DNA from: Sphingomonas sp. SUN039
GTDB lineage: Bacteria > Pseudomonadota > Alphaproteobacteria > Sphingomonadales > Sphingomonadaceae
DNA: 64,000 nt
Direction of reading: 5' to 3'
Assembly: GCF_024758725.1 (NCBI RefSeq)
Contig: NZ_CP096972.1
Span: 2,400,001 to 2,464,000, forward strand
Part shown: piece after piece, positions 49,482 to 62,524 of the stretch
Layout of the letters: every line of letters starts with the position of its first letter
Position numbering within the stretch: position 1 is the stretch's first letter
Made by a program: the position numbers and the translations under genes
Notes under the pieces: generated by a model
What the model was told of the DNA's origin: nothing
The model's input: the letters and a program-made list of their open reading frames with translations, nothing else
Database searches by the model: none

Positions 49482-49832
49482 TTACAGGTCGCGCAGCTCG
49501 CGGCTGAGCTCCTCGACGCTCGGCCCTTTCTCGGCCATCGCCTCCATGTCCTGCTGCACGCCGCGCAGGATGCGCGCGAGATATTCCTTGTGGAGCAGCC
49601 CGCGTTCCGCGCCTGCCTGACGGTCGGGCGTGTAAGCCTCGATATCGGCACGGCTGATCGTGCCCTTGGCATCGAGCAGGCGTTCGACCGTATCAAGCCG
49701 CTCGCGCAGCACAGCAACTTCGCCCGCGATGGCCATGACAATCGACAAAGTGCGATCGACAGCGGGGTCTTCGAAATACTGCGGGCGTTTGCCCTTGGCC
49801 TTGGCCCCGGCGCGGGCGATCCAGTCTACCAA
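49482..49832 (-). CDS. Conserved hypothetical protein upstream of thrS
   Basis: A 116-residue soluble protein. GKRPQYFEDPAVDRTLSIVM (about 11-30) is followed by a long helix EVAVLRERLDTVERLLDAKG that looks like a coiled coil, and ADIEAYTPD. I recognise it only as a type of protein common in sphingomonads, with no known function. The start is taken as the TTG at 49832, just behind an AGGGAGGGGG tract which belongs to the flanking palindromic repeat; the open frame continues to 49889 through the repeat and would add residues of repeat origin. Thus the repeat appears to supply this gene's ribosome-binding site. Confidence 0.7.
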   Translation of the reverse strand: MVDWIARAGAKAKGKRPQYFEDPAVDRTLSIVMAIAGEVAVLRERLDTVERLLDAKGTISRADIEAYTPDRQAGAERGLLHKEYLARILRGVQQDMEAMAEKGPSVEELSRELRDL

Positions 49833-49835
49833 TTT

Positions 49836-49885
49836 CCCCCTCCCTGAAGGGGAGAGGGACAGGCGCGAAGCGCCAGGGTGAGGGA
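49836..49885. repeat. Palindromic repeat, copy A (family 1)
   Basis: A purine/pyrimidine-rich hairpin (CCCTCCC..GGGGAGAGGG) is followed by GGCGC-GAA-GCGCC and ends AGGGTGAGGGA. It points toward copy B only 12 bases away, in tail-to-tail orientation, the same geometry as copies C and D but without a cargo gene. Confidence 0.85.
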
Positions 49886-49897
49886 ACACTCCATCAT

Positions 49898-49953
49898 CCC
49901 CTCACCCCGCTTGCGCTTCGCGCAAGTCGACCCTCTCCCCTTCAGGGAGAGGG
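49898..49953. repeat. Palindromic repeat, copy B (family 1)
   Basis: Inverse orientation to copy A. It starts with CCCTCACCC, holds a 7-bp stem CTTGCGC-TTC-GCGCAAG (49910-49926) and ends with the CCCTCTCC..GGAGAGGG hairpin. It encodes the last 15 or so residues of the methyltransferase gene that stops at 49902. Confidence 0.85.
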
Positions 49954-51146
49954 CAAGATGGTTTCCACGCCCCATAGGCGCTCCACACTGCCGCGCGGCC
50001 ATGGTCTTCGACGCCGGTGTCCTGGCGCGGGAAAATCTCCTCGTCGACGACAGCGCGCACGCCCGTCACGAACAGGCTGTCGCGCGGCAGTCCCGCTTCG
50101 ACCATGATCGATTTCAGGTCGAGCGCGTGCATCGCCGACCAGAATGGCTCGTTGTTGTTGAACGCGTCCCAGTCGCGGATGAATTGTTCGTACAGCGGCA
50201 TGTCGTCCGAATATTGCGGCTGTTCGAGGTGGAGCATCAGCCCGCCGGGGGCCATCACGCGGACGCCCTCGCGGATCACGCGCGGCAGCGCGGTGCCGGA
50301 CAATTCGTGCAGGAACATCGTCGTCTGCACCCAGTCGAAATGGCCGTCGGGATAGGCGGACAAATCCTCGCCGCTCATCTGCACGAACTTCAGATTATAC
50401 GCGCCAAGCGACTGTGCGCGGGCATGACCGTAACGCAGCGAGGGTGCCGCCGTATCGATGGCGATCACTTCGGTGTCGGGAAAGGCGAGCGCCAGCGGTA
50501 CGATGTTATGGCCGATGGTCGCACCGATATCGAGAATACGTTTCGGCACCCAGCCGGGGCGTTCGCGCCTGATCCAGTCGACCAGCGCCGCCCCGCCGCC
50601 GTCGTTGAGTGCACCGAGGCCGCCGCCGGTCGTCGCGAAAATCCCGCAATCGTAGTTTGCGCCCGCCGAGACGTCGCCCGGCCGCTCCTCGCCGTGATAG
50701 CTCCCCGGCATGCAATGAATATCGATGGCGGACTGATAGCGCGGCACCGCAACCGACGGGTCCAGCACGAGCGTATCGCGCCCCTCGTTATATTGCCGCG
50801 CCTTGGCATCGAGTTCGTCCAACTGGCGCAGCACCATCGACCGCCCGTTCTGCTGGCGCATTTCCATCGAATTGCGCTTCAGCGCCGACCAGTAGCGGTG
50901 CCACGGATCGCGGTTCATCGCGTGGCGAATTTCGAACCGGTCCTTGGGCGCGCGGCCGTGTTCGGCCTCGAAGGCGGGCAGGACGCGCGTATCGTAAGCG
51001 AGCTTGTTACCCGCGCTGAACCCGGCGAGCGCCTTGTTCAGATTGGCGAGGAAATTGAACCGCGCGGCCTCGTCATGCGCGACGTCCGGACTCACGCCGT
51101 GGCGGGCGACCGCGCTATATGGCGGGGGAACATCGGTGGCGCTCAT
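49902..51146 (-). CDS. Class I SAM-dependent methyltransferase
   Basis: A 414-residue protein. An N-terminal region of about 190 residues has no recognised fold and contains RFEIRHAMNRDPWHRYWSAL. The methyltransferase domain starts with motif I ILDIGATIGHNIVPLAL (about 204-220), then VIAIDTAAPSLRYGHARA, and FDWVQTTMFLHEL. The C-terminus, LPEGERVDLREAQAG, is encoded by palindromic repeat B. The ATG at 51146 overlaps the stop of the nitrilase-like gene (ATGA). Last gene of the operon that starts with the TonB receptor at 58634; a modification step in substrate processing is possible, but the acceptor is unknown. Confidence 0.85.
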   Translation of the reverse strand: MSATDVPPPYSAVARHGVSPDVAHDEAARFNFLANLNKALAGFSAGNKLAYDTRVLPAFEAEHGRAPKDRFEIRHAMNRDPWHRYWSALKRNSMEMRQQNGRSMVLRQLDELDAKARQYNEGRDTLVLDPSVAVPRYQSAIDIHCMPGSYHGEERPGDVSAGANYDCGIFATTGGGLGALNDGGGAALVDWIRRERPGWVPKRILDIGATIGHNIVPLALAFPDTEVIAIDTAAPSLRYGHARAQSLGAYNLKFVQMSGEDLSAYPDGHFDWVQTTMFLHELSGTALPRVIREGVRVMAPGGLMLHLEQPQYSDDMPLYEQFIRDWDAFNNNEPFWSAMHALDLKSIMVEAGLPRDSLFVTGVRAVVDEEIFPRQDTGVEDHGRAAVWSAYGAWKPSCPLPEGERVDLREAQAG

Positions 51147-52168
51147 ATCAACCCATCCCTTGCCAGACGTTCCAGCGTTTCGGCCTGGACGCGATTGAAA
51201 TGGTCGCGGTCCGGAACCGAGACAACCCCGTCGGCATCGAGCAAAGTGTTCGCGCGCTGGTGATTGTCGGTCGTATAGGTGTTCGCGAAGGCGGCGAGCC
51301 GCTGGCGCGACAGCACATTGGTCATGCCCGGCCGACGCCGCTTTTCGCGCAAGGCGGCGAGATCGATGTCGGCAAAGGCGGTGAACGTCTCGCCCGCGTT
51401 GCTCTCGGCGAGCACATTGCCCTTCCAGTCCACCACCATCGAATTGCCGTCGGCGTCCGAAAAACCATCGATCCCGGCGGTATTCGCCGACACGACATAG
51501 GCCATATTCTCGAACGCGCGGGCCTGTTTGGCGATCATCTTGGGCGTTCGCAGCGGCGATCCGATTTCGGACGACGAATGTACGAATATCTCGGCACCGC
51601 GCAGCGCATGGGCGCGGGCGATTTCTGGGTAGAGAATTTCCTCCGACGCGATCGCCGCCAGGTTGCCGATCTCTGTCCGTGCAACCGGGAACACGCCGTC
51701 GAGCCCGTAAATATCGAGATATTTCGACCAGACATCGTGCGGCGTCGGCGCGTACATCGAATTGAGGCGGCGATAGCGCAGCACGACATCGCCCGATGGC
51801 GCAATGACGAAACTCGCCTGAAAATAGAGGCCGGGGAAATGCGTGTCGGTCTCATAGGCATTGCCAGCGACGAACAGACCCAGTTCCTGTGCGACTTTGC
51901 CCAGCGCCTCATACTCCGGCCCGTCCGCCGCCCAGCCGACCTTCGCCGCAAAATCGGGGATCGAGACGCGCGCCGGGTAGCTGGTGAACAGATATTCGGG
52001 CAGCACCGCGAGCTTGACCGGCGCGCCGCCATATTGCTCGATAAAGATCGCCGCTCCGCGCAGCCGCCCCGCGACCTCACCGATGTGCGCCAGCATCGCG
52101 GCGCGCGGATCGGCGGCGTTGATGGCGGACCGCGCAGCAAGCTGCATAGCGACGGCGGCGTAGGTCAT
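51143..52168 (-). CDS. Nitrilase-fold protein with altered catalytic triad
   Basis: A 341-residue carbon-nitrogen hydrolase-fold protein. The Glu of the triad is present in AVLPEYLF (about 58). The position of the catalytic Lys reads YRRLN, with Arg in place of Lys. The nucleophilic Cys position, in the block ending YPEIARAHALRGAEI, reads ASEE, where Ser replaces Cys. The remaining fold is complete and in frame, so this is not a decayed gene, and either the chemistry is non-standard or the protein is non-catalytic. The ATG at 52168 overlaps the DUF559 stop (ATGA). Its operon includes the FAD oxidase, MFS carrier and TonB receptor upstream and a methyltransferase downstream. Confidence 0.82.
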   Translation of the reverse strand: MTYAAVAMQLAARSAINAADPRAAMLAHIGEVAGRLRGAAIFIEQYGGAPVKLAVLPEYLFTSYPARVSIPDFAAKVGWAADGPEYEALGKVAQELGLFVAGNAYETDTHFPGLYFQASFVIAPSGDVVLRYRRLNSMYAPTPHDVWSKYLDIYGLDGVFPVARTEIGNLAAIASEEILYPEIARAHALRGAEIFVHSSSEIGSPLRTPKMIAKQARAFENMAYVVSANTAGIDGFSDADGNSMVVDWKGNVLAESNAGETFTAFADIDLAALREKRRRPGMTNVLSRQRLAAFANTYTTDNHQRANTLLDADGVVSVPDRDHFNRVQAETLERLARDGLI

Positions 52169-52662
52169 GACATGTCCCCTTTCCCTCTCCCTGAAGGGGA
52201 GAGGGACAGCGGCGAAGCCGCAGGGTGAGGGGCCCTCAGCGCAGCCAGAATGGCGTCGAGCACTTCGTCCGTCCGCGCGAGCACATCATTATTCCAGAAA
52301 CGGATCACTCGATATCCTTGGCGAGCAAGAAAAGCAGTCCGGTTGTCGTCATGATCCTTGTCATCGACATGTTGGCTCCCGTCGAGTTCGACCACGAGCC
52401 GTTCCTTCGAGCACAGAAAATCCGCATAGTAAGGGCCAATTGGTGCCTGGGTGCGAAACTTGTAGCCCCCCAAGCGGCGATCGCGAACTCGATGCCAAAG
52501 GTGTTCTTCCGCCTCGGTCATATCCCGGCGGAGTTGGCGCGAGCGGGTCAGGATATGGTCGGGGGTCTTGCCTCTTATCGTAACGTCGTTCCCCTCACCC
52601 TGGCGCTTCGCGCCTGTCCCTCTCCCCTTCAGGGAGAGGGAAGAATAGGCACGCCTTATCAC
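52165..52662 (-). CDS. DUF559 (VSR/PD-(D/E)xK-like) endonuclease-domain protein, repeat-flanked
   Basis: A 165-residue protein whose central 105 residues match DUF559: SRQLRRDMTEAEEHLWHRVR, YKFRTQAPIGPYYADFLCSK and LVVELDGSQH with the likely catalytic Asp and Glu, then YRVIRFWNNDVL. About 20 residues at each end are translated palindromic repeat (copies D and C). The start is a GTG at 52662 that overlaps the stop of the FAD oxidase gene (GTGA), and the stop overlaps the ATG of the nitrilase-like gene (ATGA), so the cassette sits seamlessly in the operon. DUF559 proteins resemble very-short-patch repair nucleases, but function is unknown. Confidence 0.85.
   Translation of the reverse strand: MIRRAYSSLSLKGRGTGAKRQGEGNDVTIRGKTPDHILTRSRQLRRDMTEAEEHLWHRVRDRRLGGYKFRTQAPIGPYYADFLCSKERLVVELDGSQHVDDKDHDDNRTAFLARQGYRVIRFWNNDVLARTDEVLDAILAALRAPHPAASPLSLSPSGRGKGDMS
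52183..52232. repeat. Palindromic repeat, copy C (family 1)
   Basis: CCCTCTCC..GGAGAGGG hairpin, then GCGGC-GAA-GCCGC (52209-52221) and AGGGTGAGGGG. It has the same orientation as copy A and faces copy D across 358 bases that hold the DUF559 core. It encodes part of the C-terminus of the DUF559 protein. Confidence 0.88.
52591..52640. repeat. Palindromic repeat, copy D (family 1)
   Basis: Inverse of copy C: CCCCTCACCC, then GGCGC-TTC-GCGCC (52602-52614) and the CCCTCTCC..GGAGAGGG hairpin. It is read through in frame at the N-terminus of the DUF559 gene. Confidence 0.88.
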
Positions 52663-54200
52663 AGCCCCAAAGCCCCCGGATTCATCCGGCCTTCCGGATC
52701 GACCTCGACCTTCATCGCCTCAAGGATGCGCCACCCGCGCGGATCGCTACCCGCCTTCAGCGGATAGGTGCGCCCGATCTGGAAGTGCATCCCGCCCGCC
52801 GCCTGCATGATCCCGATCACGGCCGCGCGCAGTTTTTCGACCAATGCGCGCGCTTGCGGCTCGGCGGGAAAGCGTTTCAGCTTTGCCCAATGCGCGGGTT
52901 CGACCGACCGTCGATGGATTTCGCCGAGCGCGTCCGGCCAGTAGAACACTGGCTCGATCAGGAACCCCGTCGTCGCGACCGTCAGGAACATATAGCCCGC
53001 GCCGACGCCCAGCCGCTCCATGTCGGCGGCGTTCGCTTCGTACAACGCCGTAATCGCCTCGATCACGCCCAGCGCCTTGGAATGCCGCACGATGCCGTGC
53101 ACCGGCACCCAGCGTTCGCCGTCCGGCCCGACCATCGAATTGACTGCCGGGAAGGGGTTGGCGCGCAGCACCTTGGGGATGGTGTTCTCGACCTTGCGCC
53201 CGCCAGCGCGCTCCACAATCGCATCGATCCGCCGCATCCGCTCGTCGGCTTCGGCCTGCGTCAGTCCTTCGGCAATCAGGTGGATCGAGAATTTGGCCTC
53301 GTCGAGGAAGCTGCGCCCCGCCACGACGACTTTTGCGCCCTCCTTCAAACCTTTCCAGAAGCCCCCCTGCGACTTCATCATGCCGACGAGCTGTTTGGCG
53401 TCGGTGGCAAGACTGTCGCGCTTCATGCGTTGGGCTTGCAGAAACGGGTCGAAGCCGAAGCTCTCGCTGGCCAGCCCGGACCGCCCGATCTCGCTCATCG
53501 CCGCGCAATATTGCGCGGGCGCGTCGAAGGCGAAACTGCCGTAAGAAAACGCCTCCGCAGCGCGCATCAACGGCAGGGTGATATGCGCCTTCACCCCGAA
53601 CGCACCCGCGTCGCTCGCGAACAGACCAGTGAGGTCGGGTCCATAGGGGCGCAGGAAGCCATTACCCGTTCGCACGACGCTGCCGTCGGCAAGCACGACG
53701 TCCATGCTTAGCGCGGTTCCCGATATCGTGCCGCGTGCCGCGCCCCAGAACAGCCCGTTCTGGCTCATGCCGCCGCCGACGCTCGCCTTGATACCGCTAA
53801 GCGTTCCCCACAGCGGCGTCTGCAACCCGCGCGGGTGCAGCGCTTCGTAGAGAGCACCCCAGGACACGCCCGCCTCGACCGTCACGGTCATGTCGGTCTC
53901 GTCGATCTCAAGGATACGGGTCATGCGCCCGGTATCGACGATCAGCGCGCCCGACTCTGCCGCGACGTAGCCCGACGTGTAAGACATGCCGCCACCACGC
54001 GGAACGATGGCCAGTCCTGCTGCGGCAGCGACCTTCAGCCCCGCTGACAGTTCGTCGATGTTGCCAGGGCGAAACACACCTGCGGGCACGGGACCTGCGG
54101 CAAACACGTCCTCGGCATAGAACGCGCATTCGGCGGCGTCGGTGATCAGCGACCCGGCGGGAAAACGATTTTCAAGGCGCGGTTCGGCGAGCGTGGCCAT
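52659..54200 (-). CDS. FAD-linked oxidase (VAO/PCMH-type)
   Basis: A 513-residue flavoprotein. The PP-loop is IVPRGGGMSYTSGYVAAESG (about 65-84), followed by TVTVEAGVSWGALYEAL and the second FAD-binding stretch GLFWGAARGTISGTALSMDVVLADG in two blocks. The C-terminal part resembles vanillyl-alcohol oxidase/D-lactate dehydrogenase substrate domains and includes FYWPDALGEIHRR. The family oxidises alcohols or 2-hydroxy acids. The ATG at 54200 overlaps the stop of the MFS gene (TAATG), and the stop overlaps the DUF559 GTG. Member of the TonB receptor operon, so it likely oxidises the imported compound. Confidence 0.9.
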   Translation of the reverse strand: MATLAEPRLENRFPAGSLITDAAECAFYAEDVFAAGPVPAGVFRPGNIDELSAGLKVAAAAGLAIVPRGGGMSYTSGYVAAESGALIVDTGRMTRILEIDETDMTVTVEAGVSWGALYEALHPRGLQTPLWGTLSGIKASVGGGMSQNGLFWGAARGTISGTALSMDVVLADGSVVRTGNGFLRPYGPDLTGLFASDAGAFGVKAHITLPLMRAAEAFSYGSFAFDAPAQYCAAMSEIGRSGLASESFGFDPFLQAQRMKRDSLATDAKQLVGMMKSQGGFWKGLKEGAKVVVAGRSFLDEAKFSIHLIAEGLTQAEADERMRRIDAIVERAGGRKVENTIPKVLRANPFPAVNSMVGPDGERWVPVHGIVRHSKALGVIEAITALYEANAADMERLGVGAGYMFLTVATTGFLIEPVFYWPDALGEIHRRSVEPAHWAKLKRFPAEPQARALVEKLRAAVIGIMQAAGGMHFQIGRTYPLKAGSDPRGWRILEAMKVEVDPEGRMNPGALGL

Positions 54201-62014: not shown

Positions 62015-62524
62015 ATGTTCAAAACCCTCTCCGCTGTGCGGAGAGGGCGGCGAAGCGAAGCGAAGCCGGGAGAGGAACAGCCTGCGCCCTCCACGCTGGT
62101 CGGTCGCGCGCGCCTGATGCGACGGGAACCGACTGAGGCCGAAGACAAATTATGGCAGTATCTGCGGGCCAGCCGTCTCGACGGGTGGAAATTCCGGAAT
62201 CAACATCCCAAACCGCCATTTATTGCCGACTTCGTCTGCATCGCCGCCAAGCTGATCGTCGAGGTCGACGGCAGCCAGCATGGCGAAACCATAAATTACG
62301 ATTTTCGCCGAACGCGCCGCTTTGAACGTGATGGATTTCGGGTGCTGCGCTTCTGGAACAATGAGGTGCTGTTCAGCATCTATGCGGTGGTGGAGGCCAT
62401 TCGCGCCGAACTGGCACTGCCTCTCCCGACCGCTACGCGGTCGCCCTCTCCACAAAGTGGAGAGGGTTCAATCCTCTCCACTTCGCGGAGAGGACGGCGC
62501 GCAGCGCCAGGAGTGGAACGATGA
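62015..62524 (+). CDS. DUF559 endonuclease-domain protein, repeat-flanked (second copy)
   Basis: A 169-residue protein. The core (about 25-130) is DUF559: RARLMRREPTEAEDKLWQYL, WKFRNQHPKPPFIADFVC, LIVEVDGSQHGETINYDF and FRVLRFWNNEVL. By eye it is roughly half identical to the 52165-52662 protein, so the two are related but not recent duplicates. Both ends are encoded by palindromic repeats. The ATG at 62015 has a GAGGGAG site and lies 8 bases after the dehydrogenase stop; the TGA overlaps the CoA-transferase ATG (ATGA). The arrangement repeats that of the other DUF559 gene. Confidence 0.85.
   Translation: MFKTLSAVRRGRRSEAKPGEEQPAPSTLVGRARLMRREPTEAEDKLWQYLRASRLDGWKFRNQHPKPPFIADFVCIAAKLIVEVDGSQHGETINYDFRRTRRFERDGFRVLRFWNNEVLFSIYAVVEAIRAELALPLPTATRSPSPQSGEGSILSTSRRGRRAAPGVER
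62025..62068. repeat. Palindromic repeat, copy E (family 2)
   Basis: A 10-bp perfect stem CCCTCTCCGC-TGT-GCGGAGAGGG (62025-62047) followed by a stem CGGC/GCCG around GAAGCGAAGCGAA. It is related to, but not the same as, the family 1 units, and lies inside the 5' end of the DUF559 gene. Confidence 0.82.
62427..62508. repeat. Palindromic repeats, copy F (family 2, compound)
   Basis: Four adjacent hairpins: CGACCGC-TAC-GCGGTCG (62427-62443), CCCTCTCCAC-AAA-GTGGAGAGGG (62444-62466), TCCTCTCC/GGAGAGGA (62472-62494) and GGCGC-GCA-GCGCC (62496-62508). They encode the C-terminus of the DUF559 protein. AGGAG directly behind them serves as ribosome-binding site of the following CoA-transferase gene. 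Confidence 0.82.

Follow-up and report, generated by a model that had tools for sequence, protein, structure and literature searches.

DUF559 genes are associated with repeats of the intrastrand triplex motif type (TM, earlier PIT). A TM-type hairpin lies within 400 bp of the DUF559 gene at all 158 Pseudomonadota loci analyzed, the three of Sphingomonas sp. SUN039 included, and hairpins are present on both sides at 111 of them. Our reading, to which we give a probability of roughly 0.6, is that DUF559 is the cognate nuclease of TM/PIT repeats, the repeat-DUF559-repeat unit being an autonomous small mobile element and the scattered TM pairs its non-autonomous forms; that DUF559 nicks the folded TM and thereby drives its copying seems probable to the same degree. 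These repeats are common and have been tied to genome instability, yet the published account of them points to no known partner enzyme (PMC4666352).

DUF559 Units of SUN039

The window (the whole stretch analyzed, 64,000 nt of the SUN039 genome) contains two DUF559 units and an inverted pair of the unit-1 motif that lacks a nuclease gene (Table 1); the second unit and the nuclease-free pair had escaped the first-pass annotation.

Table 1. Positions of the DUF559 units, their arms, and adjoining features in the window
Feature	Position	Strand	Remarks
Inverted pair of unit-1 motif, no nuclease gene (probable non-autonomous form)	49835..49953		At junction of two ORFs
Nitrilase-type hydrolase gene, downstream of unit 1	51143..52168	-	ATG overlaps DUF559 stop (ATGA)
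DUF559 ORF, unit 1	52165..52662	-	165 aa; GTG start; arms encode both ends
Arm 1, unit 1	52181..52232	+	Hairpin 52183-52205; second hairpin ~52209-52221; third strand GGGTGAGGG 52223-52231, gene-facing
Arm 2, unit 1	52591..52642	-	Hairpin 52617-52641; second hairpin ~52602-52614; third strand 52592-52600 (minus), gene-facing
FAD-binding oxidase gene, upstream of unit 1	52659..54200	-	Stop overlaps DUF559 GTG (GTGA)
DUF559 ORF, unit 2	62015..62524	+	Domain 62102-62413; stop overlaps ATG 62521 of CoA-transferase-like gene (ATGA)
Left arm, unit 2	62025..62076	+	Hairpin 62025-62047 and third strand
Right arm, unit 2	62419..62466	-	Hairpin 62444-62466 and third strand; further hairpin 62472-62494

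The unit-1 ORF matches PF04480 with E=1.7e-41 (140.9 bits; gathering cut-off, 20.6), and its arms, of 52 nt each, are 92% complementary, which confirms the DUF559 core between inverted repeats described in the first-pass annotation; the start/stop overlaps with the FAD-oxidase and nitrilase genes that it reported are also correct. Each arm consists, in order, of the hairpin CCCTCTCCC-loop-GGGAGAGGG, a short second hairpin, and GGGTGAGGG toward the gene. The 23-mer hairpin has four matches in the window at three or fewer mismatches (mean of 0 in 100 shuffles), and the type-A hairpin is present in 58 copies in the SUN039 genome, with none in the reversed control; chance palindromes were rejected as the source of the arms on the strength of these shuffles and of the genome-wide control. 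Among the 51 of the 58 places that were listed, there are 16 close type-A pairs (94-161 bp from start to start) and six free copies each of the unit-1 arm 23-mer and of the unit-2 right-arm 23-mer.

GTG 52662 is the sole in-frame ATG, GTG, or TTG codon ahead of the unit-1 domain, so both arms are translated. The translation of repeats at both protein ends, as previously claimed, thus holds at unit 1; it is not a general feature of the 158 loci, where the nearest 5′ hairpin is necessarily translated in only 9 of 126, the reading frame runs past the nearest 3′ hairpin to its stop in 79 of 134, and an ATG or GTG overlaps that stop in 39 of the 79. Translation coupling as a general design of DUF559 units was rejected on these counts, and with it, as a general property, the proposal that the unit preserves such coupling. 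The arm purine strand GGGAGAGGGAAAGGGGA lies just 5′ of the nitrilase ATG (minus strand, 52168-52196) and resembles a ribosome-binding site; TM arms might therefore supply one to the following gene.

A profile scan of five ORFs neighboring unit 1 identified an FAD oxidase, a nitrilase, an MFS protein, and a UbiE-like methyltransferase, with one ORF unmatched; no cytosine-5 methyltransferase gene was recognized among these five. The nuclease-free pair at 49835-49953 is found at the junction of ORFs 49482-49889 and 49902-51146 (minus strand), where the repeats are read through, encoding the N-terminus of one ORF and the C-terminus of the other.

The single 3.53-Mb contig of the SUN039 genome yields three DUF559 matches at E<=0.01, the third located 44 kb past the end of the window between genes read as lpdA and aceF. 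All three genes are bracketed by inverted arms, and the arms are of three different sequence types.

Fit of the Arms to the Triplex Motif

The unit-1 arms fit the known TM as variants with one deviation, a kinship that the first-pass annotation did not note. The TM consensus is CCCTCNCCC-N3-6-GGGNGAGGG-N3-GGGNGAGGG (Holder et al. 2015, PMC4666352), and its hairpin part, CCCTCNCCC-loop-GGGNGAGGG, is matched by the hairpins of both arms (52183-52205 and 52618-52640). The deviation is in the spacing from hairpin to third strand, where the N3 of the E. coli consensus is replaced by 16-17 nt with the second hairpin; across loci this spacing is either 1-4 nt or mostly 9-42 nt. The window arms share with TM (TMECO/PIT) the pyrimidine-first hairpin with a G-rich third strand and the scattered intergenic copies, frequently in inverted pairs; they differ in bracketing a nuclease gene, whereas the account of the E. 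coli motif, as far as it was available, names no associated nuclease (PMC4666352).

The third strand is a mirror of the purine arm of the hairpin, with T allowed at A (GGGTGAGGG beside GGGAGAGGG in the unit-1 arms). Among 269 asymmetric arms, the mirror fits the third strand better in 146 and a direct copy in 13, with 110 ties; because the third-strand pattern of the hairpin finder is G-rich by design and favors G-rich strings, weight rests on this comparison and not on the raw fit. The mirror relation spans the types CCCTCTCC/GGGTGAGGG, CCTTCTCC/GGATGAGGG, CCCCTCCC/GGGGGTGGG, and CCTCCCCC/CGGAGGGGG, as would be expected for an antiparallel purine-motif triplex. Formation of a triplex in vitro has been demonstrated for the E. 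coli TM, of which the window arms are a sequence variant; the same source describes TM/PIT repeats in more than 260 prokaryotes and, in the portions available, reports no mobility-conferring activities or genes around the E. coli copies (PMC4666352). The same palindrome has been noted in Enterobacter sp. 638 (PMC2869309). In the openly readable literature, with subscription titles outside the scope of the search, no paper joining DUF559 to TM repeats was found.

DUF559 Genes beside TM-Type Hairpins across Genomes

A DUF559 gene is present in 126 of 149 genomes of the family, and a DUF559 match in 123 of 397 Pseudomonadota genomes. The loci from the family and Pseudomonadota searches are the best-scoring ones, and further batches were hand-picked, one of them to cover genomes with several copies. 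Left out were L073, L074, and L401, which lie at contig edges, and L123, a 100-bp stretch only. Among the first 118 loci, 195 of the 236 DUF559-adjacent 420-bp zones contain a hairpin, compared with 13 of 236 zones located 660-1500 bp off and 2 of 236 zones at unrelated loci. The hairpin finder was written after the first locus sets had been seen, and two later samples postdate its fixing. In the first of these, of 80 loci, 77 have a TM-type hairpin and 59 have one on both sides (control zones, 13 of 294); it includes records of Verrucomicrobia, Chloroflexi, Nitrospinota, and Myxococcales and was found with one protein as query, and its species may overlap with the other genomes used. In the second, 26 loci of 11 genomes, 25 have a hairpin and 21 have hairpins on both sides, the sole exception being the weakest DUF559 match of the sample.

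Of the 30 family loci whose flanks are complete, 28 have inverted arms scoring at least 30 (shifted controls, 0 of 180), and the family loci hold 47 hairpins within 250 bp of DUF559 and one in the other 83 kb. Outside the family, inverted-arm scores of at least 35 were obtained at 12 of 29 loci (shifted controls at a score of at least 30, 2 of 174) and, in a second set, at 38 of 59 (controls, 0 of 500); these scores are weaker because TMs outside the family are often paired on one side. Where a third strand is present on both sides, it points inward on both in 50 of 74 loci.

The arrangement extends to other groups. TMs adjoin DUF559 at four of four loci on Deinococcus plasmids and at one Synechocystis plasmid locus. 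A Pseudanabaena plasmid locus has long inverted arms with an inverted-arm score of 126, and a Picosynechococcus plasmid locus has a CCCCC..GGGGG-CTA-GGGGG variant recognized by eye; the hairpin finder scores neither. In N. gonorrhoeae the motifs begin 177 bp from DUF559, to one side. The genes of the four Deinococcus plasmids (L259-L262) lie amid hpa/paa aromatic-degradation genes, and their gene junctions differ. Two further loci are brackets with other arm sequences: a Gastranaerophilales record (L345; inverted-arm score of 95, no hairpin by the finder) and L101, with near-identical inverted arms of about 100 nt (score of 197).

Few plasmid records (46 of 72,556) and very few phage records (3 of 50,697) contain DUF559. 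Plasmid or phage cargo was set aside as an explanation on account of this rarity, which resembles that expected of a resident gene.

The Nuclease Fold

In the predicted model, DUF559 is a single-domain Vsr/EDxHD-type PD-(D/E)XK nuclease fold. The domain model has a pLDDT of 89.2, and its best fold match is 3HRL, a Neisseria DUF559 protein (Z 16.1, rmsd 1.0, 89 aligned residues); I-Bth0305I (3r3p), which we take to represent the EDxHD class of homing endonucleases, follows with Z 11.9, rmsd 2.2, 89 aligned residues, and 18% identity. The match to Vsr (Z 9.8, rmsd 2.0, 94 aligned) bears out the relationship to VSR-type nucleases that the first-pass annotation had named. E15, D44, E55, D57, and H61, the putative active site, are invariant in an alignment of 38 DUF559 sequences from which L303, with a stop inside the domain, was omitted. 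The fold search also matched mitochondrial ribosomal proteins of Toxoplasma and Tetrahymena (Z 8.2-9.6).

YcjD has already been linked to Vsr by profile (PMC1189080). A connection with cytosine methylation and the SOS response is described for VsrA, a DUF559 protein of Caulobacter, which triggers that response in cells without the ScmA methyltransferase; the vsrA gene is not linked to a methyltransferase gene (PMC12907096). The E73-D102-D115-H119 spacing of VsrA equals that of E15-D44-D57-H61 in DUF559, and the fold is shared with Vsr; unit 1 differs in that no cytosine-5 methyltransferase gene was recognized among the five neighbors scanned and in its bracketing repeats, which are absent from the description of Vsr (PMC12907096). 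With I-Bth0305I, DUF559 shares the fold of the catalytic domain, and it differs in being a single domain located between two intact genes, not within an intron or intein.

Arm Type and DUF559 Lineage

As judged from sequence comparison, arm type goes with the lineage of the DUF559 gene and not with the genome. Multiple DUF559 genes in one genome are accompanied by multiple arm types (11 of 77 same-genome pairs are alike in type), and the nearest DUF559 in another genome has the same TM type in 44 of 69, against a mean of 22.8 and a maximum of 41 when labels were shuffled within genomes (0 of 5000 shuffles reached 44). A tree of the 158 DUF559 domains requires 59 changes of arm type, compared with 89.5 after shuffling (0 of 200 as low), although 80 of its 155 inner branches are open and the branches of two rows are very long. 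Such agreement of type with lineage could result from linkage alone, with no recognition involved.

The same physical linkage is a point in favor of the leading alternative, in which DUF559 is passive cargo: the host's own replication slippage or template switching would spread the TMs, and a DUF559 gene caught early between two copies would now be co-inherited and co-recombined with them. TMs are palindromic and their loci are unstable in E. coli (PMC4666352). Fused single-hairpin alleles, too, need slippage only. On the other hand, a gene trapped in this way would not be expected between arms of many unrelated sequences, and the putative active-site residues of DUF559 are invariant; gene and repeat lie close together almost without exception in different phyla and with different repeat types, and TMs are scarce in genomes that lack DUF559 (23 such genomes have at most two type-A hairpins each). 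We consider passive carriage unlikely.

Copy Number

Across 149 related genomes, those with more DUF559 genes tend to have more type-A hairpins (Spearman 0.585). All 28 genomes with at least 10 type-A hairpins have DUF559, and within-genus pairs are concordant in 32 cases and opposite in 7. Subtracting two hairpins for every DUF559 gene lowers the correlation to 0.28 (p 6e-4) and the balance of within-genus pairs, by sign test, from 32:7 to 13:8 (p 0.38), figures that are over-corrected since many arms are of other types. Evidence from copy number beyond the copies flanking DUF559 is moderate. The first-pass annotation would have given up its idea of a unit if the unit were fixed at one place in all relatives, with no empty sites, and if arms lay free throughout the genome without a DUF559 gene. 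Only the second half holds: free arms there are, as the 58 hairpins of SUN039 illustrate, but arm number goes with DUF559 gene number, so they look like non-autonomous copies and not like a refutation. Agreement of type in trans is mixed: the free copies of the unit-1 and unit-2 arm 23-mers in SUN039 speak for it, and G096 has 26 type-B copies, of which those shown share the stem of its DUF559 arm, whereas G022 has 16 type-B hairpins and three DUF559 genes without B arms, and G140 has 39 type-A hairpins and two DUF559 genes with other types.

The copy numbers bear also on a role in host repair, in which DUF559 would be a Vsr-like mismatch or hairpin repair nuclease that limits TMs instead of spreading them, the TMs being its problem substrate or regulator. 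Such a nuclease should leave fewer TMs where there is more DUF559, and the raw counts run the opposite way; the inverted bracketing and the presence in one genome of several DUF559 lineages with different arms would both go unexplained. The Vsr fold, the SOS response to Caulobacter VsrA in cells lacking ScmA (PMC12907096), and the existence of deletion-type TM alleles are in keeping with repair, which we nevertheless rate as distinctly improbable.

Sites with and without the Unit

The comparison of the unit-1 locus in relatives, proposed in the first-pass annotation, revealed the unit-free state in four of them (L031-L034), where the FAD-oxidase and nitrilase genes are adjacent and their junction lacks both DUF559 and a TM hairpin. 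In L033 the two genes are joined by a GTGA overlap, as used by unit 1, which in SUN039 thus occupies precisely this kind of junction.

The aceF-lpdA gap contains DUF559 in 4 of 30 loci, and all four have exactly two hairpins there; among the 26 loci without DUF559, 25 have no hairpin and one has a single hairpin. DUF559 is found in this gap in several genera (L190, L062, and L003). In two genomes of one genus (G149 and G072), the genes at L190 and L062 are of different lineages and arm types, the L190 genes having been read by eye.

At hisZ-serA, 20 of the 121 genomes of genus g111 were compared, 6 with DUF559, all with TMs, and 14 without; as the genomes were chosen by state (14 apparently gapped, 6 filled), the ratio carries no meaning. 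Thirteen of the 14 DUF559-free genomes have no hairpin with third strand. The remaining one, G669, whose hisZ part shares 96% identity with that of G119, has a different, nuclease-less TM pair at this site.

Orthologous sites thus occur in both states, occupied by the unit and free of it, and gain and loss are alike possible as the direction of change. No target-site duplication was established at the unit-free sites, whose flanks are too diverged or are under selection at the start/stop overlap, and no excision, cleavage, or insertion event was seen. The self-contained unit inserting into operons that was originally proposed accordingly stands as a repeat-gene-repeat arrangement with nuclease cargo and with sites that lack it, and not as a case of active transposition. 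A homing-type element, whose nuclease cuts DUF559-free alleles so that the unit is copied into the same site by recombination with TMs as mere edges, would suit the homing endonuclease catalytic domain that comes next to 3HRL among the solved folds, and the occupation of aceF-lpdA in several genomes by DUF559 genes that differ in lineage between L190 and L062, but it is very improbable, given that units lie in many unrelated intergenic sites, with no interrupted conserved target gene at those inspected, and that free TM pairs would be left unexplained.

Proposed Mechanism and Known Systems

We infer that DUF559 cuts and mobilizes TMs. A TM made single-stranded during replication or transcription would fold into hairpin plus third strand; DUF559 would recognize the folded TM and nick at its edge; and the break would be copied or joined into other, mainly intergenic, sites, resulting in gain, loss, or fusion of TM pairs. 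Insertion at start/stop junctions may be tolerated owing to arms that are short, rich in purines, and in many cases open in frame.

The closest counterpart is the RAYT/REP system (REPtron), in which a small nuclease gene likewise lies beside inverted palindromes also found elsewhere in the genome, repeat abundance correlates with the gene, enzyme and repeat are paired, and the location is mainly chromosomal (PMC8266576, PMC3733652). The enzymes differ, DUF559 being PD-(D/E)XK/Vsr-like and RAYT being HUH (PMC8266576, PMC3733652). The unit-1 arm sequences have no GTAG tag, the third strand of DUF559 units mirrors the hairpin arm, and there are at most nine DUF559 genes per genome. By analogy, DUF559-TM would work like RAYT-REP and would not be a member of it, as enzyme superfamily and tag differ. 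RAYT itself was rejected as the driver of TMs, since PF01797 (HUH Y1 transposase) has no match in the SUN039 genome (G000) or, in all, in 7 of 12 TM-rich genomes.

More tentatively, and at somewhat less than even odds, these units may constitute a new class of mobile repeat system, triplex-ended elements, in which a single-domain Vsr-type DUF559 reads folded hairpin plus third-strand DNA, each lineage has its own cognate repeat, and TM/PIT have been seeded across Pseudomonadota, Deinococcota, Cyanobacteriota, and other phyla without a transposase of any known class. If so, the widespread DUF559 would gain a function, the task that RAYTs perform for REPs would have a second, unrelated solution, and the covariation would be evidence for selection on triplex geometry itself. 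The near-constant nuclease partner makes TM spreading directly testable; E. coli K-12 has both the repeats and ycjD.

TM Repeats and ycjD in E. coli

The DUF559 gene of E. coli K-12, ycjD, is flanked on a single side, by TMECO number 9 roughly 165 bp downstream. Of 5426 E. coli genomes, 3330 contain the sapF-ycjD-fabI stretch at a cover of at least 80%; in strains without ycjD, an efflux operon, described in PMC12817139, occupies the site at all three alternative loci fetched. A clean empty site at ycjD was therefore set aside, and the site says nothing clean on mobility.

At hrpB-mrcB and alx-sstT, the TM pairs of E. coli occur both as full alleles and as alleles with one fused hairpin; a TM-free allele exists at hrpB-mrcB as well. 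The fused alleles (L253-L257, compared with L250 and L252) look as if the interior had been lost via slippage or excision.
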